Under the pieces are notes generated by a model. The model saw nothing but the letters and a program-made list of their open reading frames with translations. It was not told the DNA's origin and made no database searches. 24,072 bases of DNA, taken from IMG/VR virus record IMGVR_UViG_3300009428_000071, positions 1 to 24,072 of that record, one strand, 5' to 3'. The first letter of the stretch is position 1. Each line of letters begins with the position of its first letter. This document shows, in pieces, positions 3,290 to 20,079 of the stretch. The position numbers were made by a program, and so were the translations under genes. The stretch comes from a virus.

Positions 3290-5448
3290 TGTCAAAGTTA
3301 AGCCCTAAGTGTAGAGTTGCCGTAAACACTAATTCTTTAAATGCAGGAGTTATAAGTAACTTAACTCCCCAGCAGCAGAAGAATTGGATGGACGCGCACC
3401 TCGCTCGTAAGGATAATAAGGTAAGTGCGTTTGACGTAGCACTGGACGTAGCTATTAACTCAATGCTCTCAGGTATGGGTACGCCATTAGTCAACATGAT
3501 TTCTATTGCTCTTCAGCAGACTCTTAAGAATGCTAATGAGACTATTGGATTTGCATTAGACAGTATAGGTTTAACCAACGGAGGCAGAGAGTGGAGGCAG
3601 GTTAAGGCGATGTGGGATGCATCTCTCGAAGGCTTCAGTGCTGACCTTCTATACTTCCGTGAAGGATTTGGAAAAGGATATTCACTGGATCAAGAGACTG
3701 TAAGACGATCTCTACAAATGGACAAGGCTGAGTGGGATGATTATGTTAAGACTACACTCAAGATAGATGACACTGCTAAGTTAACTAATGACGAGGTAAA
3801 TGATCTACTGAATGACATGCAGGATTACATGCATAACTCCATTGGTCGTACTCGTGTAGGTGGTACTAAGATTGAAGGGGCTGCGCGTTTCCCTACTAAG
3901 CTTATCGTAGGCATAGACGAGTATGGTAAGTCTAGGTATCGTAGGCAGAGCCTATACCAAGCAGCCTCTAAGTATGCTTCTGAAGATAGTAAGCTAGGTA
4001 TGGGTTCTTACGATGAGCTTTATAAAGATTATAAGGGTCAGTTATTTAGTAAGGAATCCCCTACTACTCAGTGGGATGCTCGTCTTAAAGCTTTTGTAGC
4101 TGCTCGTAATACTGACAGGGTCAACGCAGGACATAAGGGAGTTGGCGATGATTTAGATGTACTGAGGAAAAGTAATGAGATGGTTTCATGGGTGAGGGAT
4201 GATGCTTTGTTTAATGCTTTTCAGCAGAAGCTTGAAGGTATTCCCCTTAAGGCACAGAAGCTTAGGCATGAGTACCCAGCCTTTACTTTGTTTGCTCCAT
4301 TCATTAAGACTCCTTGGAATATTATTAAAGAAGGTTACAATTATATTCCAATAGTCCCTGCTCTACACATCAGGAAGATAAATAAGGAAGGACTAGGGGA
4401 TGCACTACTAGATTTCCGTACTTCTGTAATACCTATGCATGGCCCTTCACGGAAGATGACAACAGCAGAGCTACTGCCTCGTCAGGTTATTGGAGCTTCT
4501 GTCTTTGCTATGGTAGGCACTATGTATCAAGAAGATAACCTTACTGGTAGTCTACCTCGTACCGCTTCTGAGAGGCAGCGTTGGAAGGACACAGGCAAGA
4601 AGCCATACTCAATTAAGATTGGGGATACTTGGATGGAGTATAATCGTATAGAACCTTTAGCCACTCCTCTTGCTATGGCTGCTGATCTATTTGATTTCAC
4701 TAAGGATTATTTGGATGATGATGACATCAACACTGAGGAAGGGATGGAGTTGGTTCAGGATATGTTGTATGCTGTTAAGAGCAACTTAACCTCTAAGACA
4801 TTCCTAGAAGGCTTCCACGCTTTAACGGAAGTGATTATTGATCCTAACATAGATACTGGTTCAGCTCTTCTAGAGACAGCGGCTCGTCCCTTTACACCAG
4901 CTATTACAGCCAACATAGCTAAGGCTATGGACACGTATGAGAGACAAACTGAGTCTGTTCTAGAAAGACTTCAGGCTCGTATACCTATCTTTCGTGAGCA
5001 GTTGCCTAAGAAGTATGGTGTGTATGGTGGCCCTCAAGAAACTGATATTACCAAAGCTTTACTTAATATAGGGTTCTCTTCTGAAGATAATCTATCTCCT
5101 TTACAGAAACATATTACTGATATTGAGTGGAACAAGGGAGGGATTGTTAATAAGTTCCAAGGTGTTAAACTTTCTAGTGAGGACGTTGCAGAGCTTAGAG
5201 AAATCAATGCTCAGGTGTTAACTCCTATACTAGAAGCTGTCATTAAAGAACCAGAGTATCAAGCTCTTTCTGATTCTAAGAAGAAAAAGATATTAGATAG
5301 TAGGGTACGTAAGGCTCGTCTAAGAGTGGGTAAGCAGTTTGCTTATAAACTAAAGCAGAAAGATCCAGAGTTTGCTAGGAAGTGGCTGTCTGCTTGGTAT
5401 AGGAAGCAAGGTCTTGGTGATGTGATGCCTGATAATTTGAAGGACTAG
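3283..5448 (+). CDS. Large putative internal virion / ejection protein (721 aa), last gene of late operon
   Basis: Begins inside the stop of the previous gene. AGGAG at 3274-3278 is 4 nt from the ATG at 3283 and 10 nt from a second ATG at 3289, so either start (MLMSK or MSK) may be used. The protein is mostly charged and helical, with hydrophobic segments near residues 340-365 (FTLFAPFIKTPWNIIKEGYN) and 405-420 (VIGASVFAMVGTMYQ). The latter is followed by a region with LPRTASERQRWKDTGKKPYS and a RIEPLATPLAM block, which I associate with large internal or tail proteins of podoviruses. It is the last rightward gene before the terminator at 5459. Probably ejected with DNA; the mechanism is not visible. 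Confidence 0.6.
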   Translation: MLMSKLSPKCRVAVNTNSLNAGVISNLTPQQQKNWMDAHLARKDNKVSAFDVALDVAINSMLSGMGTPLVNMISIALQQTLKNANETIGFALDSIGLTNGGREWRQVKAMWDASLEGFSADLLYFREGFGKGYSLDQETVRRSLQMDKAEWDDYVKTTLKIDDTAKLTNDEVNDLLNDMQDYMHNSIGRTRVGGTKIEGAARFPTKLIVGIDEYGKSRYRRQSLYQAASKYASEDSKLGMGSYDELYKDYKGQLFSKESPTTQWDARLKAFVAARNTDRVNAGHKGVGDDLDVLRKSNEMVSWVRDDALFNAFQQKLEGIPLKAQKLRHEYPAFTLFAPFIKTPWNIIKEGYNYIPIVPALHIRKINKEGLGDALLDFRTSVIPMHGPSRKMTTAELLPRQVIGASVFAMVGTMYQEDNLTGSLPRTASERQRWKDTGKKPYSIKIGDTWMEYNRIEPLATPLAMAADLFDFTKDYLDDDDINTEEGMELVQDMLYAVKSNLTSKTFLEGFHALTEVIIDPNIDTGSALLETAARPFTPAITANIAKAMDTYERQTESVLERLQARIPIFREQLPKKYGVYGGPQETDITKALLNIGFSSEDNLSPLQKHITDIEWNKGGIVNKFQGVKLSSEDVAELREINAQVLTPILEAVIKEPEYQALSDSKKKKILDSRVRKARLRVGKQFAYKLKQKDPEFARKWLSAWYRKQGLGDVMPDNLKD

Positions 5449-5458
5449 AAACAAAGAA

Positions 5459-5484
5459 GGGGACAATTAAGTCCCCTTTATTTT
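5459..5484. terminator. Bidirectional rho-independent terminator between converging operons
   Basis: Perfect 6-bp stem GGGGAC/GTCCCC with loop AATTAA, followed on the + strand by TTTATTTT. On the - strand the same stem is followed by TTCTTTGTTT. It lies 10 nt after the stop of the rightward 721-aa gene and 21 nt after the stop of the last leftward gene, so it can end both transcripts. Confidence 0.85.
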
Positions 5485-5492
5485 GCCTTGAA

Positions 5493-5505
5493 TTTCCCTA
5501 GGAAA
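5493..5505. repeat. TTTCC-N3-GGAAA inverted repeat, copy 1
   Basis: TTTCC CTA GGAAA. It directly abuts the TAG stop (5506-5508) of the last leftward gene and lies between that stop and the terminator. In the leftward RNA the flanks AG and UU extend the stem to 7 bp through a G-U and an A-U pair. Confidence 0.8.
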
Positions 5506-5652
5506 CTATAACAAACTCTTCTGCCCTTCCTCTAAGTACCAATCAAACTCTATGTGACAATCCACACATGCTTTCTTATTGATACTTGTGAAGGTGAGTA
5601 GGTCTTTGTTCCCACACTGAGGACACTCTTTGGTAGTTACTTTCTCACTCAT
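5506..5652 (-). CDS. Small zinc-ribbon-like protein (48 aa)
   Basis: A short gene of 49 codons. The ATG at 5652 overlaps the stop of the DUF3310 gene (ATGAGTGA) and has GGAG four nt upstream. The product has two Cys pairs, CPQCG at residues 10-14 and CVDC at 29-32, spaced as in a small zinc ribbon, then an acidic C-terminus. It is the last gene of the leftward replication operon. Small zinc-ribbon proteins are common in lytic phages and often bind nucleic acid or host proteins, but the role here is unknown. The Cys spacing, coupling and Shine-Dalgarno make it a credible gene despite its length. Confidence 0.75.
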   Translation of the reverse strand: MSEKVTTKECPQCGNKDLLTFTSINKKACVDCHIEFDWYLEEGQKSLL

Positions 5653-5959
5653 GATTCTCCATCCAATCTTCTATCATCATATCGATACAATGCTTTGCCT
5701 TAGCTAAGTCCTGTAATGGTGTACCCTTATCTTGATAACGAGTGACGTACTTAATAGCTGTATGCTGTAGTGCATTCAACTCATTAGCCATAGAGTATTC
5801 CATAGGCTGAATCTTAAGCTTAGAGTAGTGGTCACCTCCTACCTGAGTAGCTTTAGCAGAACCTAGGAATGGTTCATCTTCCTCAGGGACTCCCCATACA
5901 TAGTCTTCATTCATAGTAGGCTCCTGTTTAACCTGATCCCATACTCTAGCTCTGATCAT
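5645..5959 (-). CDS. DUF3310 family protein (possible nucleotide kinase, T7 gp1.7-like)
   Basis: The C-terminal about 65 residues carry the DUF3310 signature: QVGGDHYSKLKIQPMEY, then a helix leading to AIKYVTRYQDKG, then LAKAKHCIDMMIE. The family includes T7 gp1.7, reported to phosphorylate nucleoside monophosphates; whether this copy does so is not shown by the sequence. The start at 5959 (MIRARVW) was chosen because GGAGG lies about 9 nt upstream; the frame stays open to a TTG at 5986 without such a site. A second good site (AGGAG, 6 nt from the ATG at 5914) might give a shorter product starting MNEDYVW. It overlaps its neighbours on both sides, so translation is coupled. Confidence 0.8.
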   Translation of the reverse strand: MIRARVWDQVKQEPTMNEDYVWGVPEEDEPFLGSAKATQVGGDHYSKLKIQPMEYSMANELNALQHTAIKYVTRYQDKGTPLQDLAKAKHCIDMMIEDWMENHE

Positions 5960-6122
5960 ATTGTTTGTCCTCCAATTGTTCTTCAAGGTCTGAGAACTTA
6001 TTAATTATAATGTCCTCATACCTCTCAACTAATGTTGCACTGTCAAGCTGTAACAACTCAATGAGCATGACTTCATCCAACGCTTGTAAATGTACTTTCA
6101 ACTCTTCGAGTGTCATTGACAT
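5946..6122 (-). CDS. Small acidic helical protein (58 aa)
   Basis: A short leftward gene that fills the gap between the metallophosphoesterase and DUF3310 genes. The ATG at 6122 has AAGGA six nt upstream. The product is acidic and helical with a heptad-like leucine pattern (LEELKVHLQALDEVMLIELL, then LVERYEDIIINKFSDLEEQL). Small proteins of this type, with an 'LDE..LLELL' core, are familiar as hypotheticals in lytic phages. It overlaps the 3' end of the metallophosphoesterase gene and the start of the DUF3310 gene, as expected for a coupled operon gene. Function unknown. Confidence 0.75.
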   Translation of the reverse strand: MSMTLEELKVHLQALDEVMLIELLQLDSATLVERYEDIIINKFSDLEEQLEDKQYDQS

Positions 6123-8388: not shown

Positions 8389-10077
8389 CTAGTGTGTGTG
8401 CGCCCAAGTTGGCCCTACGTTGTAGTCACCATCCAATGGACAATTCATTTCAAAGTGCAGCCCAGCATCAACGATGGCCTGTACTCCTAACTTACCTACC
8501 AAGTCTGCATCTTCTGCTGAAGATTCGATCTGCCATTCGTCATGGACGTTAGCTACAAACTTGTACCACACTCCACTATCATCAAGAGATTTCTTGAGAA
8601 TAACTAGAGCTTGCTTCATCACTATTGCGCCAGCAGATTGTAAGAGAAAATTTAAAGCACTGTGCTCTGACTCTACTCTTAACCTACGTCCGTCCAGCCC
8701 TCGTAGTGTACCACGTTTACGCATACTCTGCAATACGATCTCTTTCAACCGAGCATACGCAGGTAGGTTCTTCATAAACTTATCAACCAGTTGCTTACCC
8801 TTACGAGCAGAGCCACCAGCTATCTCTCCAATCTTAGCGAAACCTCCGCCATAAATCAGGGCGTATATGAAAGTCTTCGATTGATCACGAGTAGCTAGCC
8901 CAGCCATGTGTTGATTATACGTATGTATATCCCCTTCAAGTAGTTGCTTGATGTAGGCTTTATCATTCATGTAATGGGCAAGCATCCTCAATTCGAGGCC
9001 AGAAGCATCGATGCCAGTTAATAAGTTCCCTTCCTCTACAATCCAACAGGCTCTACAGTCTGTACTATAGGTTGAACCTGCACCAAATAGTAACTCACCT
9101 GTCTTCTTGTCCTTCTTAGCTGATGGTACTTGGGCCATGTTAGGATTATTATGAGTCATACGTCCAGAGACAGCTCCATTAGTAATCACTCCACCATGTA
9201 CACGACCATCACTACCAACTGCATTTACCCAGCTATCGATCTGACTAACTCTTTTCTGTAAGGTTAGATATTCTAGTATCAACTTAGCTTCAGGTAAATC
9301 TATTCCTGCCAAGGTCTTCTCATTAACAATGATGTTACCCTTGTCAGTTTGACTACTGAATACTACTCCTTTGCCTTGGAGTCTTTCAGCGATTTGCTTA
9401 CGGCTTCCGAGGTTGAAGACTGTGACTTTATCTTTAAGCCGCTTACCTGTCTTTTCCGAGACTCGCTCCTCCACCAAGGGTGGGAAGACTGCTTGGACTG
9501 CTCGTTCGATTTCATTCATTCTCCCCATAAGATCACTTAACAATTGGTTTGCTCTAACAGTGTCTAACTTAAATCCATTAGACTGCTGCTCTGCAATTAT
9601 GATTGCTACTTCATGCTCTAGCTTAATACATTCCTCTGAGAATCCATCCTCTAGTAGTAGGCTGGTGAGGTGAGGCTCAAGTAGATGGGTTATCTCAACA
9701 TCCATCTTGCAGTAGGTACGCATCTCCTCTGTTAGACCACCATCATAATCATCGAACTTAATCTTAGGGTATCCCAACCTGTCACCCCAAGCTGATAATG
9801 AATGACCACCTTCTAATCGTGGACACCATAGCCGAGACATTAACACTGTATCTCTCAGCTTGTAGTTAGGTATCTGTACCTGCCATAGTTTATCTATCTT
9901 AGGTGCATCAAACCCTGTGATGTTATGTCCTATTACGTGGCTTGTATGACGCAGGTGCTGCTCTAACTGCATCGGGTTCACTAGTAACCTCTGCTTTACC
10001 TCGCCCTCTCTTTGGATTCCACAACACCATATATGATCCTGCTTCCATGTTGTCTCTATATCTAGCGTTAGCTTCAT
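8389..10077 (-). CDS. Family A DNA polymerase with 3'-5' exonuclease (T7-like)
   Basis: 562 residues. Exonuclease motifs: LDIET at 4-8, GHNITGFDAPK at about 50-60, and YCKMDVEIT near 122-130. Polymerase motif A is GIDASGLELRMLAHY near 353, motif B RDQSKTFIYALIYGGGFAKIG near 393-415, and motif C VANVHDEWQIE near 512-522, giving both catalytic Asp residues. It is shorter than the 704 residues of T7 gp5, partly from a compact N-terminal domain, with no obvious long thioredoxin-binding insertion. GAGG stands about 9 nt before the ATG, which lies inside a short overlapping reading frame starting at 10117. It replicates the phage genome with the primase-helicase encoded two genes upstream. Confidence 0.95.
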   Translation of the reverse strand: MKLTLDIETTWKQDHIWCCGIQREGEVKQRLLVNPMQLEQHLRHTSHVIGHNITGFDAPKIDKLWQVQIPNYKLRDTVLMSRLWCPRLEGGHSLSAWGDRLGYPKIKFDDYDGGLTEEMRTYCKMDVEITHLLEPHLTSLLLEDGFSEECIKLEHEVAIIIAEQQSNGFKLDTVRANQLLSDLMGRMNEIERAVQAVFPPLVEERVSEKTGKRLKDKVTVFNLGSRKQIAERLQGKGVVFSSQTDKGNIIVNEKTLAGIDLPEAKLILEYLTLQKRVSQIDSWVNAVGSDGRVHGGVITNGAVSGRMTHNNPNMAQVPSAKKDKKTGELLFGAGSTYSTDCRACWIVEEGNLLTGIDASGLELRMLAHYMNDKAYIKQLLEGDIHTYNQHMAGLATRDQSKTFIYALIYGGGFAKIGEIAGGSARKGKQLVDKFMKNLPAYARLKEIVLQSMRKRGTLRGLDGRRLRVESEHSALNFLLQSAGAIVMKQALVILKKSLDDSGVWYKFVANVHDEWQIESSAEDADLVGKLGVQAIVDAGLHFEMNCPLDGDYNVGPTWAHTH

Positions 10078-10120: not shown

Positions 10121-10429
10121 TCACCTCCATCCCTTACGTTTTGCATAGGCCATGTAACTCACTCCATGTTCTTCAATAGCTTTATATACTGCATCCATTG
10201 AAGTGGCACGATTCCATTTCCTATTAGCTTTGTTCCGTAAGCACCAGCTCCAAGTTAATGTATTGATGAAGAAGTAGTTTCCTTTATGATGAAAGCATAT
10301 CTTACCATTATCATAAGGCATAGGGTTCCTCTTACCTTTTAGTTTAAGATAAGCCATAGCCTCCTCAAAGTTAACTAGGTCAATCTCCTCAGGATTGGTA
10401 ATGCTATAAGTGTTTATCCGTTTACTCAT
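10121..10429 (-). CDS. Hypothetical protein (102 aa)
   Basis: The ATG overlaps the stop of the primase-helicase gene (TTATGA) and has AGGAG 8 nt upstream, within the helicase's Glu/Lys-rich 3' end. The product is basic, with FEEAMAYLKLKGKRNPM, an aromatic stretch NYFFINTLTWSWC and a Lys/Arg-rich C-terminus ending KRKGW. I recognise no family. Its place between primase-helicase and polymerase suggests a replication or nucleic-acid role, but nothing in the sequence proves it. Confidence 0.8.
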   Translation of the reverse strand: MSKRINTYSITNPEEIDLVNFEEAMAYLKLKGKRNPMPYDNGKICFHHKGNYFFINTLTWSWCLRNKANRKWNRATSMDAVYKAIEEHGVSYMAYAKRKGWR

Positions 10430-12024
10430 AACTCTTTCTCCTCTTCCTTCTCAAGCATTCTACCAGTGCTGTGACTGTAGGCTAACTCATTAGCCTTACC
10501 TGTGAGGCCACAGAATCGGTTCTTAAGTACACGTACATGAGTAGTGTTCCTAGTCTCTTCATCCTCTGCTTGTCCATTACGTTCAAGACCTAGTACCATA
10601 TCACTAAGCTGTGCGATAGAGCCAGAGCCACGTAGCTGTGACAAGCTAGACGCTGCACCTTCCTCATGACCTTTACCATCAGGACGCTTGAGGTGAGATA
10701 CAATGAACAGTGCAATGCCTGTCTCCTGTACTAGCATACGAAGCCTAGTCATGATCTCGTCTAATGCTTTACGTTCATCGCCACTAGCCTGTGCTGACAC
10801 CACGATAGATACGTGATCCAATACTACATACTTACATCCTAATCCTTTAGCCATGTAACGTACACGAGCTACAATATTATCAACACCAGTAGAACCGAAG
10901 TGGTCGAATAAGAATATACGATCAGTGCCTAACGTGGCATCGAATGCATCCTTCCTCTCCTCGTCTGTAGCTATAGTGTCAGGTAGATGTAATGGTTTGT
11001 TAGCAGCAAGGGACATTAAAGATAGAGCAGCTTTCTTAATACTCTCTTCAAGGAATAATATTCCTATGTTATCTTCTGTCTTACTGATGATCTGCCATAT
11101 AATCTCACGCATGAACTGACTCTTACCTAGTCCAGATCCAGCGGTAACTGTAACCAACTCACCAAATCTAATTCCATACGTAAGTTTATTGAGTCCATCG
11201 AAAGGATAGAGGCAGTCTGCTGGGGCGATAGGCTTGTTAACCTCTTCCCATAGTGAAGCTCCTGCAATAATTCCATCTGGGACAAAGCGTTCTGAGTTCC
11301 ACCATCGGTCAATGAACTCTTTTGTACGTCCAAACTTAAGGTAATCGTTTGCATCCTTCTCGTCCTTAGTGTGCTTATATACCTTAGTCTTACCACCAAA
11401 CAACTCAGCCACTTGGTTAGCAGCCTTGACCCCTACCTCGTCTGAGTCGAAGCATACCACTATGGTATCGAAGCTATCTAGGTACTCGTATGAGGCTCGA
11501 CAATCTTTCAATGCACCAGAGCTGCCATTCTTAATAGATACTACAGGGTACTTACTACCTAGCATCTGGTAGGCAGACAGAGCGTCATACTCACCTTCAG
11601 TTACAGTAATGTACTTACCGCCTTTAGGGAACAAGTTCTGTCCGAACAGTACTGTGTCCGACCAAGCACCTGATGTAAAGAACTCCTTCTCTGGAGTCCG
11701 AGTCTTAGCTCCCACTAAGAAACCATCCTTATCATGGTATCCGAAGATCATACGTTCGCCATGTAACTGGGCCTTGTATGTCTTACAGGTATCGCTTGAT
11801 ATGCCACGAGCAACTACACTCTTATATGGCTTGGTGTTTAAGTCTTCTTTAGTTCTATCGAAATTTCCTGAGGAAACTTTAGTACTAGGTACATCCATAT
11901 CTATCTCCTTACCTCTAGTTCGTTTATCGCAGGCGAAGCAAGTGCGCCACCCTTTATCATCAATGCTCAGTGCGTCACTGCTACCGCAGTCGTCACAAGG
12001 CAAGTGTGTTTTGACGAAGCCCAT
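10426..12024 (-). CDS. Primase-helicase (T7 gp4-like)
   Basis: 532 residues from the start chosen at 12024 (MGFVKTHL), which has GAGG 9 nt upstream; the frame extends 7 codons further to an ATG with no such site. Order of domains: Cys4 zinc finger C10-C13/C29-C32 (CDDC...CFAC), TOPRIM primase core with VTEGEYDALSAYQ and VCFDSDEVGVKAA, then RecA/DnaB-type helicase with Walker A TAGSGLGKSQFMRE, a Walker B-like strand YVVLDHVSIV, and LRGSGSIAQLSDMVLGLERN. It unwinds DNA and makes primers for the polymerase. A second start with a strong ribosome binding site at codon 43 would give a 490-residue form lacking the zinc finger. The C-terminus is very acidic and Glu/Lys-rich, as in T7, where the tail contacts the polymerase. 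Confidence 0.95.
   Translation of the reverse strand: MGFVKTHLPCDDCGSSDALSIDDKGWRTCFACDKRTRGKEIDMDVPSTKVSSGNFDRTKEDLNTKPYKSVVARGISSDTCKTYKAQLHGERMIFGYHDKDGFLVGAKTRTPEKEFFTSGAWSDTVLFGQNLFPKGGKYITVTEGEYDALSAYQMLGSKYPVVSIKNGSSGALKDCRASYEYLDSFDTIVVCFDSDEVGVKAANQVAELFGGKTKVYKHTKDEKDANDYLKFGRTKEFIDRWWNSERFVPDGIIAGASLWEEVNKPIAPADCLYPFDGLNKLTYGIRFGELVTVTAGSGLGKSQFMREIIWQIISKTEDNIGILFLEESIKKAALSLMSLAANKPLHLPDTIATDEERKDAFDATLGTDRIFLFDHFGSTGVDNIVARVRYMAKGLGCKYVVLDHVSIVVSAQASGDERKALDEIMTRLRMLVQETGIALFIVSHLKRPDGKGHEEGAASSLSQLRGSGSIAQLSDMVLGLERNGQAEDEETRNTTHVRVLKNRFCGLTGKANELAYSHSTGRMLEKEEEKEL
11864..11876. repeat. TTTCC-N3-GGAAA inverted repeat, copy 2 (inside primase-helicase)
   Basis: TTTCC TGA GGAAA inside coding sequence, about 20 nt downstream of the internal start at 11898. 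In the leftward RNA it forms AGUUUCC-UCA-GGAAAUU, a 7-bp stem with one G-U pair. Confidence 0.65.
11896..11910 (-). promoter_or_regulatory. Internal ribosome binding site for short helicase form
   Basis: On the coding strand AAGGAG-ATAGAT-ATG: a perfect Shine-Dalgarno with 6-nt spacing before Met43 of the primase-helicase. It is stronger than the site for the full-length start. This mirrors T7 gene 4, where an internal start gives the 4B helicase without the zinc-binding domain. Confidence 0.8.
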
Positions 12025-12211
12025 TAGCAAAATCCTCATATTCATGATCTGTCATGAAATGGCTCAGCACCACATCCAGTGACATTAATAATTCCCAATC
12101 AGCAGCCCTCGCTGTTGCGTGGTGCCCACCTCGATAGTTATCTAGGTAGTACTGCTTCAAGCAATCAACAGCGATTGCATTAGCATCCTCTATCCCTACT
12201 TCAATCTTCAT
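11993..12211 (-). CDS. Hypothetical protein (72 aa)
   Basis: The start at 12211 (MKIEVGIED) is set by GGAGG five nt upstream; the frame reaches a GTG at 12232 with no site. The start lies inside the end of the membrane-protein gene (ATGAAGATTGA), and the end overlaps the primase-helicase start. The product is acidic, with a single predicted helical body (VGIEDANAIAVDCLKQYYLD, then ADWELLMSLDVVLSHFM). Similar short 'GIEDANAIAVDCLK' proteins are hypotheticals next to replication genes in lytic phages. Function unknown. Confidence 0.75.
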   Translation of the reverse strand: MKIEVGIEDANAIAVDCLKQYYLDNYRGGHHATARAADWELLMSLDVVLSHFMTDHEYEDFANGLRQNTLAL

Positions 12212-12443
12212 CCTCTCCTCCTTCCTTAGCACTATGCATAAGCGTAATGCTGATTGGTTTACCTGTCTCCTCAGACTTATCTAACGCTTCACACATGATA
12301 GTGTATAGCTTAGTCTCTGTATCTACACTATGTTTAGTGTACTGGAAGAACTCATACATAGGTGACAGGAAGAATATGATAACAGATCCTAGTATGGAAA
12401 GTCCAGCCGCTAGCCACACTACCTCCGTGAACCAACTAAGCAT
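12201..12443 (-). CDS. Small single-pass membrane protein (80 aa)
   Basis: One clear hydrophobic segment at about residues 8-27 (VWLAAGLSILGSVIIFFLSP) followed by a polar, acidic C-terminal region (KLYTIMCEALDKSEETGKP, ending GGEDED). AGGGG lies 6 nt before the ATG, which overlaps the stop of the HTH gene. An N-terminal membrane anchor with an acidic cytoplasmic or periplasmic tail could suit a holin-like, spanin-like or host-modifying role, but it lies in the replication operon rather than next to a lysis gene, so a lysis call is not supported. Confidence 0.75.
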   Translation of the reverse strand: MLSWFTEVVWLAAGLSILGSVIIFFLSPMYEFFQYTKHSVDTETKLYTIMCEALDKSEETGKPISITLMHSAKEGGEDED

Positions 12444-12720
12444 CAGTCACCCCTGCTATGTGCATAGCCCTCTTCTCAGCTATCTTCTCGTACAGGTCGT
12501 GGTGTACTATAGCTGCTGATACTGAGGTGTGTCCTCTATTTAGTATTTTAGCAGTGTCTGATAGTGATACTCCTAATGCTCTTAGGTCTACTACTTTCTG
12601 AAGCTCAGAAGATACCCAGTATTTATGAGGTCGTCCACTAACTTTCTTTACTACAGATTTTACTGGCTCCTTCTTATCACCGAACCAAGCAGCGATCTTA
12701 GGTTTGAATATTATACTCAT
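12436..12720 (-). CDS. Putative helix-turn-helix DNA-binding protein (94 aa)
   Basis: The core VVDLRALGVSLSDTAKILNRGHTSVSAAIVHH (about residues 43-74) has the spacing of a helix-turn-helix of the resolvase/transposase or sigma region 4 type, with GVS at the turn. A basic N-terminus contains SGRPHKYW, a minor-groove-binding-like GRP. GAGGGG lies 8 nt before the ATG. It is the only convincing small DNA-binding regulator in the window and is thus a candidate reader of the TTTCC-N3-GGAAA repeats or of the two leftward promoters. That link is a guess. It could equally be a host-directed transcription factor. Confidence 0.65.
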   Translation of the reverse strand: MSIIFKPKIAAWFGDKKEPVKSVVKKVSGRPHKYWVSSELQKVVDLRALGVSLSDTAKILNRGHTSVSAAIVHHDLYEKIAEKRAMHIAGVTDA

Positions 12721-16234: not shown

Positions 16235-16732
16235 TTACGCTGCCAAGGCTTCAGCAATTGCCTCTTTGATTTCCGTTGGCGTAACGTCACAAGCCTTGTA
16301 GCTATCAATTAGCTTTTGCAAATCCTTCAGTGTAATTTCTGGCTTTTCAGCTTCTAACCATTTAGCTATCGTTTCTAGCTTTGAGGGTGGGGTTTCATTA
16401 TATACAGCTTTTCGCCATTCTGAATAGGTACTGAAGTTATTAGGTGATAGATTCTCATCACGCGACTTCTTAAAACATGATAGCACTTGTCGCACCGCAC
16501 TCACTGCTTTTTTCTCTGCTTCGTCCGCATTTTTACCAGTTCCTTTAGGGAAAGCCTTGGCAATATCTACTTTAATTTCGAGGGCAGATTCTGCATTGTT
16601 TAGGTTGATTCCACTATCCTGCAATGTTACTGCAAACACTCTGCGAGCGTCATTAGTCTTGTCACTAGCCTTAACTTGCTTGGTTAACATGTTGCCGATA
16701 TTCTTAATTTCTGTTTGAAAATTCATAATCAT
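16235..16732 (-). CDS. Hypothetical first early protein (165 aa)
   Basis: First gene of the leftward early operon. AAGG lies 4 nt before the ATG at 16732 (MIMNF) and 10 nt before the one at 16726 (MNF); the second is perhaps more likely. The product is helical and soluble, Ala/Lys/Glu-rich, with KNIGNMLTKQVKASDKTNDA, a middle ADEAEKKAVSAVRQVLSCFK and a C-terminal EITLKDLQKLIDSYKACDVT PTEIKEAIAEAL. No Arg-rich N-type motif is present, so a lambda N homologue is not supported even though the gene occupies the equivalent position between a boxA leader and a terminator. Unrecognised; likely a host-takeover or early regulatory protein by position. Confidence 0.75.
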   Translation of the reverse strand: MIMNFQTEIKNIGNMLTKQVKASDKTNDARRVFAVTLQDSGINLNNAESALEIKVDIAKAFPKGTGKNADEAEKKAVSAVRQVLSCFKKSRDENLSPNNFSTYSEWRKAVYNETPPSKLETIAKWLEAEKPEITLKDLQKLIDSYKACDVTPTEIKEAIAEALAA

Positions 16733-16784: not shown

Positions 16785-16881
16785 CTTTTTACTCTTTAAA
16801 TCGGAGGCGTACTTGCCCGTTAAGATCAATCCGAAATGTAGACGGACTAACCCCTTGAAACATTCACACCTAAATCCAGAT

Positions 16882-16893
16882 TGTTAAAGAGCG
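16882..16893 (-). promoter_or_regulatory. boxA antitermination element
   Basis: CGCTCTTTAACA on the - strand, an exact match to the bacterial boxA consensus and one base from the E. coli rrn boxA (TGCTCTTTAACA); the match to rrn continues for two more bases (AT). boxA RNA binds NusB-NusE(S10) and makes RNA polymerase resist termination. It lies about 90 nt into the early leader. Confidence 0.8.
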
Positions 16894-16987: not shown

Positions 16988-17016
16988 ATAATACGTTAAC
17001 CATGCACCACTGTCTA
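16988..17016 (-). promoter_or_regulatory. Sigma-70 promoter of the early leftward operon
   Basis: -35 TAGACA (17016-17011), 17-bp spacer, -10 TATTAT (16993-16988). The -35 and spacing equal those of the promoter at 13085-13113. Expected start near 16981, upstream of the boxA. Confidence 0.7.
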
Positions 17017-17064: not shown

Positions 17065-17228
17065 CTACATTAGCTATCACTAAATTAGGATAGGGGAGCA
17101 CTATATAAATAAGCTATGGGTACCTACTTAGACATTCACACTGGTTATATCAGGGAAGTCTACATTAGTCTTTACTATATTAGCATTGTCTACATTAGAT
17201 TCTGCTACATTAGGGTAGTCTACATTAG
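17065..17228 (+). repeat. CTAYATTAG iteron-like array
   Basis: Seven copies of a 9-mer: CTACATTAG at 17065, CTAAATTAG at 17080, then 17160, 17175 (CTATATTAG), 17190, 17205 and 17220. Within each group spacing is exactly 15 bp; a degenerate copy (TTATATCAG) lies at 17145 in phase. Three copies are extended to GTCTACATTAG with a 30-bp period. Iteron origins or terminase small-subunit binding sites have this appearance; the choice is open. Confidence 0.8.
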
Positions 17229-17278
17229 GGACGGGGGGTATATGGCAGCGCGGGTCACAATAGCGGTACCTGCTTAGA
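17119..17278 (+). repeat. 14-bp direct repeats flanking the main iteron block
   Basis: GGTACCTACTTAGA at 17119-17132 and GGTACCTGCTTAGA at 17265-17278, one mismatch, bracketing the five 15-bp repeats and a G-rich patch (GGGACGGGGGG at 17228-17238, then GGCAGCGCGGG) that stands out from the AT-rich surroundings. Confidence 0.7.
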
Positions 17279-17500
17279 TACTAAAAAGGTTGAAATTAGA
17301 AAGTTATGTAATTATTCTAAGTCTTTGTAATTAAAAGGAATAAGAACTATGTAGTTATAACTTATTGATATTGATAAAGGAGAAGTACCTGCAGGGGATT
17401 GCATAGTGGTAGGGAGTCCTGCCAAGGGAGTACTAGGGAGATAGCTAGGGTGCTCTAAGTTGTACATTGTAAACTATTAGATACATATATAATTAAGATA
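17279..17500. other. Gene-free stretch of the control region
   Basis: No credible reading frame, tRNA or promoter seen. It contains repeated TGTAATTA (about 17309 and 17327), a purine-rich segment with several GGGAG/AGGGAG runs (17405-17450), and very AT-rich DNA near 17475-17500 just before the late promoter. It may belong to a replication origin or packaging site with the neighbouring repeats. Confidence 0.5.
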
Positions 17501-17504
17501 TGTC

Positions 17505-17533
17505 TTGACTTATGTGAGAAAGTATGCTACCCT
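17505..17533 (+). promoter_or_regulatory. Likely rightward late promoter upstream of terminase genes
   Basis: -35 TTGACT (17505-17510), 17-bp spacer ending in an extended -10 TGC, -10 TACCCT (17528-17533, weak). The -35, spacer length and AGTATGC ending match the promoter at 22029-22057. It would give a leader of about 130 nt before the first packaging gene. Confidence 0.55.
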
Positions 17534-17673
17534 CTATTCCTACTATATAGGACTGAACAGAAAGACAGAGTATCTGTGTACCTGATAACCATTCTCCTTA
17601 TGATAAACACTACTCTCTGTTCTCAATTCAGAGTCTATATAGAGACAAAGTTCTCTAATTAGGTGTTTATTAT

Positions 17674-18066
17674 ATGAATGATGATTGTTCTCAAAGTGGT
17701 GATGTTAAACCTAAAAGGGGCCGTCCAACTAAAGCTTCTATTGCTGCTAAGAAGAAAGGCAATAGGAATAGTGTTGGAAGACCTAAAGGGGATGCAGCAA
17801 GAATCAACGAGCTTAAGGCTAGGTTGTTAGCCACGAGTGGTGATAAGGTTATTAATAAGGTTATAGCTATCGCGTTAGAAGATGGTCATCCTGTTCAATC
17901 AGCAGCTCTTAAGATGTGTATGGATCGTGTGTTACCTGTTTCTTATTTTGATAAAAAGAATGAGAGTGGAGGAAGGAATGCTGTGTCAATCACTATTACG
18001 GGTGTCGGTGGTACTACTATTATTGGGGGCGATGATGCCCTTGAAGGGGAATACGAAGATGTCTGA
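17674..18066 (+). CDS. Putative terminase small subunit (130 aa)
   Basis: First gene of the rightward packaging block. AGGTG lies about 8 nt before the ATG. The N-terminus carries two AT-hook-like elements (KRGRPTK at 13-19, VGRPKGD at 35-41) in a Lys-rich segment, followed by a helical part (INELKARLLATSGDKVINKV, then SAALKMCMDRVLPVSYFDKK) and a beta-like tail SITITGVGG. Proteins of this pattern precede TerL in related phages and are usually taken as small terminase or DNA-packaging subunits. It could recognise the CTAYATTAG array 450 nt upstream. Role inferred from order and DNA-binding features. Confidence 0.6.
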   Translation: MNDDCSQSGDVKPKRGRPTKASIAAKKKGNRNSVGRPKGDAARINELKARLLATSGDKVINKVIAIALEDGHPVQSAALKMCMDRVLPVSYFDKKNESGGRNAVSITITGVGGTTIIGGDDALEGEYEDV

Positions 18067-18826
18067 ATTATTTAGTGGGGATAGGTTCCAACTATTCTTA
18101 GACTCAATTGCCGAGATAGAGAGCAAAGGAGTCTATGATATTAAAGGAGGATCTAATGATCACTATGATGGTAAGTATCAACTAGGTGAGGCTGCTAAGA
18201 AAGATGCAGGAGAAATACTAGGAATAGATTTAGGACACACTGCATCAGCGAGAGAATCATTTAGAAAAGACCCAGAGTTACAAGAACGTGCAATGAAAGC
18301 ACTTGTAATGAAGAATCATCAATCCCTTAGTAACAAACAAGGGGAGTCTTATACCTCTCTACCTGAAGCAGAACAGCTCGCTATATTAGGCTATGCTCTT
18401 AACCAAGGAGCTGGTGGTGCGAGTAAATGGATGAGTACAGGTGAAGTTGGGGAGGATGGTTTTGGTACTGCAGGTACAAAGTATGTAGACAGTATACGAG
18501 ATAACTTAGGGATCTATGGTTATAACGGATTAGGTGACTTAGCTTCTCTTAAAGGGGAGGAGTTTATGAATCTAACAGGAGATGCTAAAGAAACTATTAC
18601 ATCTCTATATGATGACTCAATGAACTGGTTAGATGGTTTTAATGCTAACCCTGCATCTGCCTCTACTTACACAGCAATAGCTGGTGATGATCCTTACACT
18701 ATTGCTCAAAGACATGGAATCAGTTTAGAAGAATTAGCATCTCTTAACCCAGAGGTTGGTAATGCCCTTCAACAGGGAAAGTTAGGTATTGGTCAACAAC
18801 TAAATGTAAGGTATGATGATCTTTAA
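18059..18826 (+). CDS. Putative lysozyme/transglycosylase with C-terminal LysM domain (255 aa)
   Basis: The start at 18059 (MSELFSGDRF) has AAGGGG 9 nt upstream and overlaps the previous stop by 8 nt; the longer open frame from 17882 runs through the terminase small-subunit gene and is not credible. Residues about 10-45 (FLDSIAEIESKGVYDIKGGS then DGKYQLGEAAKKDAG) match the catalytic-Glu region of transglycosylase-like muralytic enzymes (E-S-x-G...G-x-YQ). Residues about 205-252 form a LysM (YTAIAGDDPYTIAQRHGISL EELASLNPE, GQQLNV) that binds peptidoglycan. No signal peptide or membrane segment. Either an endolysin or a virion-associated enzyme; its position between terminase genes is unusual. 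Confidence 0.75.
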   Translation: MSELFSGDRFQLFLDSIAEIESKGVYDIKGGSNDHYDGKYQLGEAAKKDAGEILGIDLGHTASARESFRKDPELQERAMKALVMKNHQSLSNKQGESYTSLPEAEQLAILGYALNQGAGGASKWMSTGEVGEDGFGTAGTKYVDSIRDNLGIYGYNGLGDLASLKGEEFMNLTGDAKETITSLYDDSMNWLDGFNANPASASTYTAIAGDDPYTIAQRHGISLEELASLNPEVGNALQQGKLGIGQQLNVRYDDL

Positions 18827-20079
18827 TGACAGATCTTAATGTTGCGTTCCTAGATTGGCAAAGAGAAGTGTATGAAGATCCTGTTCGATTCAAAGTAGTT
18901 GCAGCAGGTAGACGTTGTGGTAAGAGTAGACTTGCAGCGTGGGCCTTAATTATAGAAGGACTGCAGACAACTAAAGGACAAGTGTTTTATGTTGCCCCTA
19001 CTCAGGGACAGGCACGAGACATCATGTGGGAAACTCTTATGGAGCTAGGCCACAGTGTTATTAAAAGCAGTCATATTAATAATCTTCAAATAAAATTAAT
19101 AAATGGTACTACGATTGCACTTAAGGGTGCAGATAGACCAGAGACTATGCGTGGTGTTAGCTTAAAGTTCCTTGTTATGGACGAGTATGCTGACATGAAG
19201 CCCGAAGTGTGGGAGCAAATCCTACGACCAGCACTAGCTGACCAAAAAGGTAAGGCTATCTTTATAGGTACTCCTATGGGACGTAACCATTTCTATGATT
19301 TGTATAGACATGGACAAGGTGATGACCCTACTTTTGCAAGCTGGCACTTTACTTCTTATGATAATAACCTACTAGACCCTGAAGAGATAGAAGCTGCTAA
19401 AGGAAGTATGTCATCCTTTGCATTCCGTCAAGAGTTCCTAGCTAGCTTTGAAGCTGCTGGTGGAGCTGTCTTTAGTGAGGACTGGATTGAGTTTGAGACA
19501 GAAGAACCTGACGAAGGAGACTACTATATCTCTGTTGACCTTGCAGGTTTCGCTGACATAGAGAAAGCAACTACGTCTAAACAAAAGAAACTAGATACAA
19601 CTTCTATATCTGTTGTTAAATGTGGCCCTGATGGTTGGTGGGTTGATAATATAATCTATGGTCGATGGGATGTTAAGAAGACAGCGGATAAAATCTTCCA
19701 AGCTGTACGAGACTATCAACCTATTGCTATAGGTGTGGAGAAAGGAGCACTGAAGAATGCAGTACACCCTTATCTATTAGATAAAATGAAGCAAGAACAG
19801 TTCTTCTTTCGAGTCGAGGAACTAACTCATGGTAATAAACGGAAAACTGACCGAATTATCTGGGCTTTACAAGGACGATTCGAGCATGGACAAATAACTT
19901 TAAACGAAGGAAAGTGGAATACAGAGTTTTTAGACCAGTTATTCCAGTTCCCTAATCACTTAGTACACGATGACTTAGTAGATTCACTTGCATACATTGA
20001 CCAGTTAGCTAAGGTTAGTTATGCATATGACTATGAGGAAGACGAGTACGAATTTATGGATGCTATCGCAGGATATTAA
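18826..20079 (+). CDS. terL: Terminase large subunit
   Basis: 417 residues, ATPase plus nuclease. Walker A AAGRRCGKSR near residues 27-36, Q-motif-like LDWQREV upstream, Walker B FLVMDEYAD near 115-123, coupling motif IFIGTP near 149. The nuclease domain has the metal-binding acids in YISVDLAG near 230, IGVEKGA near 303 and HDDLVDSLAY near 388. It cuts concatemeric DNA and pumps it into the prohead through the portal encoded next. Translation is coupled to the lysozyme gene (TAATG overlap) without a clear Shine-Dalgarno. Somewhat shorter than many TerL proteins. Confidence 0.93.
   Translation: MTDLNVAFLDWQREVYEDPVRFKVVAAGRRCGKSRLAAWALIIEGLQTTKGQVFYVAPTQGQARDIMWETLMELGHSVIKSSHINNLQIKLINGTTIALKGADRPETMRGVSLKFLVMDEYADMKPEVWEQILRPALADQKGKAIFIGTPMGRNHFYDLYRHGQGDDPTFASWHFTSYDNNLLDPEEIEAAKGSMSSFAFRQEFLASFEAAGGAVFSEDWIEFETEEPDEGDYYISVDLAGFADIEKATTSKQKKLDTTSISVVKCGPDGWWVDNIIYGRWDVKKTADKIFQAVRDYQPIAIGVEKGALKNAVHPYLLDKMKQEQFFFRVEELTHGNKRKTDRIIWALQGRFEHGQITLNEGKWNTEFLDQLFQFPNHLVHDDLVDSLAYIDQLAKVSYAYDYEEDEYEFMDAIAGY

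Follow-up and report, generated by a model that had tools for sequence, protein, structure and literature searches.

The bacterial origin oriC is composed of clustered DnaA boxes and an unwinding element. The lambdoid phage origin consists of iterons bound by the O protein and of an AT-rich region (PMC7466680), while the origin of the iteron plasmid RK2, oriV, combines iterons, DnaA boxes and a DNA unwinding element (DUE) (PMC4980987). DnaA is known to double as a transcription factor (PMC8203912). In the literature searched, which leaves most subscription journals outside, we found no description of an origin for the phage family considered here.

We analysed a 24,072-base IMG/VR virus record (the window, meaning this whole stretch), which is a fragment of an uncultured phage whose complete relatives measure ~36 kb. 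The evidence throughout is the comparison of metagenomic contigs. As in the lambdoid origin, the locus under study has directly repeated, putative initiator sites in a row beside an AT-rich stretch (PMC7466680); however, the O gene itself contains ori-lambda, with iterons that are bound by O, whereas here the 9-mer is intergenic and recurs at 15-bp intervals, and no O-like initiator could be recognised in this phage. With RK2 oriV the phage family shares the same types of parts, i.e. iterons, DnaA boxes and an unwinding element (PMC4980987), but iterons and DnaA boxes alternate between its members and no Rep protein was recognised in this phage either. As for oriC, many phage relatives carry consensus DnaA boxes, with ~11/21/32-bp spacing, at the position of the array, whereas the window has no DnaA box in the region and belongs to a phage that encodes both a primase-helicase and a polymerase of its own.

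The repeat array and its surroundings

The array sits inside a 941-bp gap that separates two divergent operons, the rightward genes encoding lysin, large terminase and portal. The genes and repeats referred to below are the following.

5.6-16.7 kb, minus strand: leftward gene block with T7-type primase-helicase, family-A polymerase, exonuclease and single-strand-binding protein
8389-10077, minus strand: family-A DNA polymerase, with at most 47% identity to polymerases of Pelagibacter phages
10426-12045, minus strand: T7-type primase-helicase (phrog_239, E 5e-177)
16235-16732, minus strand: 165-aa ORF that opens the leftward operon, modelled as all-helical, a candidate for an initiator or a regulator
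17065-17088, plus strand: iteron group 1, CTACATTAG (17065) and CTAAATTAG (17080), 15 bp apart, identical in the relative L001
17160-17228, plus strand: iteron group 2, five CTAYATTAG copies, one per 15 bp, with the same strand and spacing in relatives
17674-18066, plus strand: 130-aa ORF, assigned as putative small terminase solely from its position
18826-20079, plus strand: large terminase (TerL; PHROG 2, E 6e-46)

The polymerase of the fragment is 37-47% identical to those of Pelagibacter and Roseobacter phages. A search for cultured relatives found no close one, and a TerL search in bacterial genomes returned four contigs, placed in MAG bins of three different groups, which indicate no clear host. 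Rfam and tRNA scans gave no matches. In the leftward operon of one array-bearing relative, L110, three adjacent genes (3993-5977, minus strand) match Pfam DAHP_synth_1, CTP_transf_3 and HAD hydrolase, a trio that resembles KdsA/KdsB/KdsC of KDO synthesis.

A preliminary description had reported seven clear CTAYATTAG copies in two groups. The array itself stands, and the count has to be corrected: CTACATTAG is found at 17065, 17160, 17190, 17205 and 17220, and CTATATTAG at 17175 is also an exact copy, but the copy at 17080, CTAAATTAG, has one mismatch, which gives six exact copies and one single-mismatch copy. The spacing of exactly 15 bp inside each group was recovered as described, and so was the extension of alternate copies, since those of group 2 at 17158, 17188 and 17218 read GTCTACATTAG. 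Because every second copy of this group is so extended, Tandem Repeats Finder prefers the 30-bp period (score 96) to the 15-bp one (score 57), in what is the strongest array of the 24-kb window. CTACATTAG occurs five times in the 941-bp intergenic region, a number reached by any exact 9-mer in 1/5000 first-order Markov simulations, a figure computed before counting the regular spacing. Two further exact matches are located elsewhere in the window, at 18381 (plus strand) and 21895 (minus strand).

The two groups had been said to lie in different reading frames and hence to form a DNA-level repeat. They are indeed offset by 95 bp, which is not divisible by 3. A 53-aa ORF (17116-17277) would translate group 2 as a YIR repeat; this ORF is truncated or start-less in most array-bearing relatives, and therefore we discarded the coding explanation and consider that the repeat acts at the DNA level. 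The placement between divergent operons, about 450 bp before the putative small terminase gene, agrees with our measure of 445 bp between the end of the last copy and the 130-aa ORF (17674).

Repeats and DnaA boxes at the same position in relatives

Relatives of the 130-aa protein are encoded in 353 stretches of viral contigs, from which we compared 120 non-redundant upstream regions. The preliminary description had counted the lack of an array at this position in relatives among the findings against its reading, and the outcome favours a conserved feature: 13 of the 120 regions, the window among them, contain at least two exact same-strand CTAYATTAG copies. In the relatives these copies, generally 15 bp apart, precede the same gene; most of them stand 400-635 bp ahead of the 130-aa ORF, distances for which the ORF start is approximate at some loci. 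For three relatives of 31-36 kb (G005, G007 and G008) CTAYATTAG is confined to the array. Considering tandem repeats of any kind, they were found in 71/120 regions vs 67/360 random control pieces. Longer tandem repeats (25, 36 and 53 bp) occupy the same place upstream of the 130-aa homologue in L203, L205, L263, L265 and L269, where they are candidates for further iterons.

Many of the other regions carry DnaA boxes. Precisely, the 120 regions contain 110 TTWTNCACA boxes, whereas 300 permuted motifs average 12, and in 22 regions at least three such boxes fall within 250 bp (mean of the permuted motifs, 0.09); among the permuted motifs only TTATCNWCA scored high, and it overlaps this same DnaA box. 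As many as 94 of the 110 boxes are positioned between -600 and -300. The clusters hold three to seven helically phased boxes, whose spacings group at 11, 19-22, 30-34 and 41-42 bp, i.e. at helical multiples, mostly 11/21/32 bp. An exact DnaA box is present in 8 of 10 whole records searched, and nearly all copies fall inside the one cluster. In the 941-bp gap of the window, the TTWTNCACA scan found no DnaA box and consequently no oriC-like cluster. Array and DnaA-box clusters never co-occur in the regions listed. Unlike that of the DnaA boxes, the 15-bp spacing of the array is off the helical repeat, and therefore the protein binding the array is probably other than DnaA; comparison of the regions suggests that host DnaA probably does the equivalent job in those members of the family that have DnaA boxes at the array position.

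The perfect DnaA-box clusters of the relatives could bind host DnaA, so that the repeats might titrate the host initiator as a datA-like sink, holding back host replication rather than starting that of the phage. We regard this as highly improbable: a sink could work from any place, whereas the repeats keep a constant position, and CTACATTAG is unlike a DnaA box.

On a TerL tree of 108 members (a quick tree, read with a two-box threshold that we chose), all the array rows belong to one well-supported set of 21 rows, 12 of which have the array. DnaA-box clusters are scattered over the same tree and need ~21 state changes, and 69 of the 108 rows have neither boxes nor array under the thresholds used. 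Inside the clade of the fragment, L012, L014 and L025 carry other repeats, yet in TerL they differ by no more than a few percent from the array-bearing L013, L019 and L022. From these sequence comparisons, the replication-start signal seems to turn over frequently in this family. A stronger statement, namely that this is an exchangeable origin module in which the array is replaced wholesale between close relatives, passing between host DnaA boxes and private iterons with an initiator to read them while the neighbouring genes stay nearly constant, is one that we put forward only tentatively.

Candidate binding proteins and the packaging alternative

The array had also been proposed as a packaging recognition site bound by the 130-aa protein, i.e. 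a packaging initiation (pac) or terminus (cos) site. It directly precedes the 130-aa ORF and the terminase genes, and the sequences that flank it are conserved:

17119-17132, plus strand: conserved flank GGTACCTACTTAGA before group 2, with the motif GGTAYCnnCnTAG
17228-17238, plus strand: conserved GGGACGGGGGG, abutting the last iteron
17265-17278, plus strand: conserved flank GGTACCTGCTTAGA following the array, in direct repeat with 17119-17132

What is conserved around the array comprises GGTACCTRCTTAGA, GGGACGGGGGG and the rightward promoter; GGTAYCnnCnTAG was found in 21 regions of the clade of the fragment, irrespective of their repeats. The GGTACC and GGGACGGGGGG flanks are conserved with the rightward operon and could themselves be a packaging signal. 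With a pac or cos site, however, the small terminase and its site are expected to co-vary, and we observed instead that the core of the 130-aa protein hardly varies, whether a phage has CTACATTAG arrays, other repeats or DnaA boxes, while the array differs or is absent. Therefore, this protein is unlikely to be the array reader. Furthermore, different arrays stand on near-identical TerL backbones, and two circular assemblies are broken far from the array (G007, with 127-bp identical ends, and G026, with 126 bp at 99%, as is typical of such assemblies). The ends of contigs upstream of TerL are dispersed, with no single-position pile-up, and are uninformative on termini. Taken together, these data disfavour the packaging proposal, which we judge to have a very small chance of being correct.

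The 130-aa protein gave no family match in profile searches and its structure model was too poor to use. It has an N-terminal AT-hook-like GRP motif and a second GRP, both invariant in the aligned relatives.

The best positional candidate for an initiator was the 165-aa protein. Of the array-bearing relatives whose upstream sequence is long enough, 12/12 encode it, as against 0/20 DnaA-box relatives, a distribution drawn from a single clade, and its model gave no significant structural or fold match. We did not retain it as initiator since it does not track the array type: the homologues of the array-less L014 and L025 are 54-56% identical to the window protein, vs 41% for those of the array-bearing L013 and L022.

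A 94-aa helix-turn-helix-like protein (12436-12720, minus strand) was considered as a stand-alone DnaA domain IV. By eye its sequence looks like the DnaA signature, but it has no Pfam DnaA match, the signature is absent in relatives and the syntenic homologues do not track the array type, so this candidate was dropped as well. Its putative recognition helix differs strongly among the syntenic homologues. As a possible opener of the origin we also searched for a phage RNA polymerase and set it aside: there was no match in nine records, a result that does not establish absence given that the search control was equally silent.

Origin and operator readings of the locus

The best reading of the array is an origin with lineage-specific iterons. 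On sequence comparison we think it likely that the array supplies the iterons, or initiator-binding sites, of a phage replication origin between the divergent replication and structural operons, and the origin proposed in the preliminary description is supported in this sense. The main ground is that the DnaA-box clusters of relatives share the position of the array. The remaining elements to be weighed are the following.

16988-17016, minus strand: candidate leftward sigma70-type promoter TAGACA-17-TATTAT, from a consensus scan
17305-17364, no strand: AT-rich stretch, candidate unwinding element, the least stable part of the gap
17505-17533, plus strand: candidate rightward promoter TTGACT-17-TACCCT, conserved in alignment A1

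In an iteron origin one expects regular direct repeats of the same orientation with an AT-rich element next to them. Here the six exact copies and the near copy keep a 15-bp register, and the stretch at 17305-17364, downstream of the array, is predicted to be less stable than every other 60-mer of the window but one (nearest-neighbour energies). The cumulative GC skew, suggested earlier as a check, has its minimum in the window at ~16.5-17 kb, near the array. A minimum near the locus was also obtained for G007, G008 and G028, and in G028 it lies beside DnaA boxes. This minimum is not independent support, because the direction of transcription switches at the same place.

Further observations weigh against the origin reading. 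Many relatives, the 69 of 108 tree rows mentioned above, have neither boxes nor this array under the thresholds used. In the lineage of the window no initiator was recognised and the array spacing of 15 bp differs from that of the DnaA boxes, so that the array need not do their job. Moreover, a possible leftward promoter is situated ~50 bp from the array, and a regulator could bind at this place. The array might then be an operator or activator-binding array for the divergent replication and structural promoters, at which a phage or host regulator sets the timing, DnaA being in relatives the transcription factor there. Besides the location between divergent operons, the possible leftward promoter (17016-16988) close to group 1 and the conserved rightward promoter ~280 bp from group 2 fit this proposal, and so does the role of DnaA as a transcription factor (PMC8203912). 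The number of hits in the promoter consensus scan was no higher than in shuffles. On the other hand, helically phased clusters of three to seven DnaA boxes with an adjacent unstable element look origin-like, and promoter control can coexist with an origin. We consider a purely regulatory array rather unlikely.

If lambda and iteron plasmids are taken as models (PMC7466680, PMC4980987), an origin at the array would work in steps that lead from the binding of a protein through melting and helicase loading to the start of replication. The 9-bp boxes, 15 bp apart, would be bound side by side by an initiator, whose complex would melt the AT-rich stretch just downstream (~17305-17364); the T7-type primase-helicase of the phage would be loaded at the melted stretch, and the phage polymerase would then copy the genome. 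If this is true, the origin of an uncultured phage family is located, and one site switches between private repeats and host-type (DnaA) ones within a short evolutionary span. It would then be testable how phages change their initiator dependence and which protein reads the 15-bp array.

The -10 element of the rightward promoter, TACCCT in the fragment, is TATAGT in most aligned relatives. A conserved inverted repeat (17525-17552, plus strand) surrounds it and reads CTATAGTC..GACTATATAG in relatives. The leftward replication operon has in its leader, by sequence match, the following element.

16879-16892, minus strand: rrn-like boxA GCTCTTTAACAATC

Such boxA-like (antitermination) sequences were found in 9 regions, the window included.
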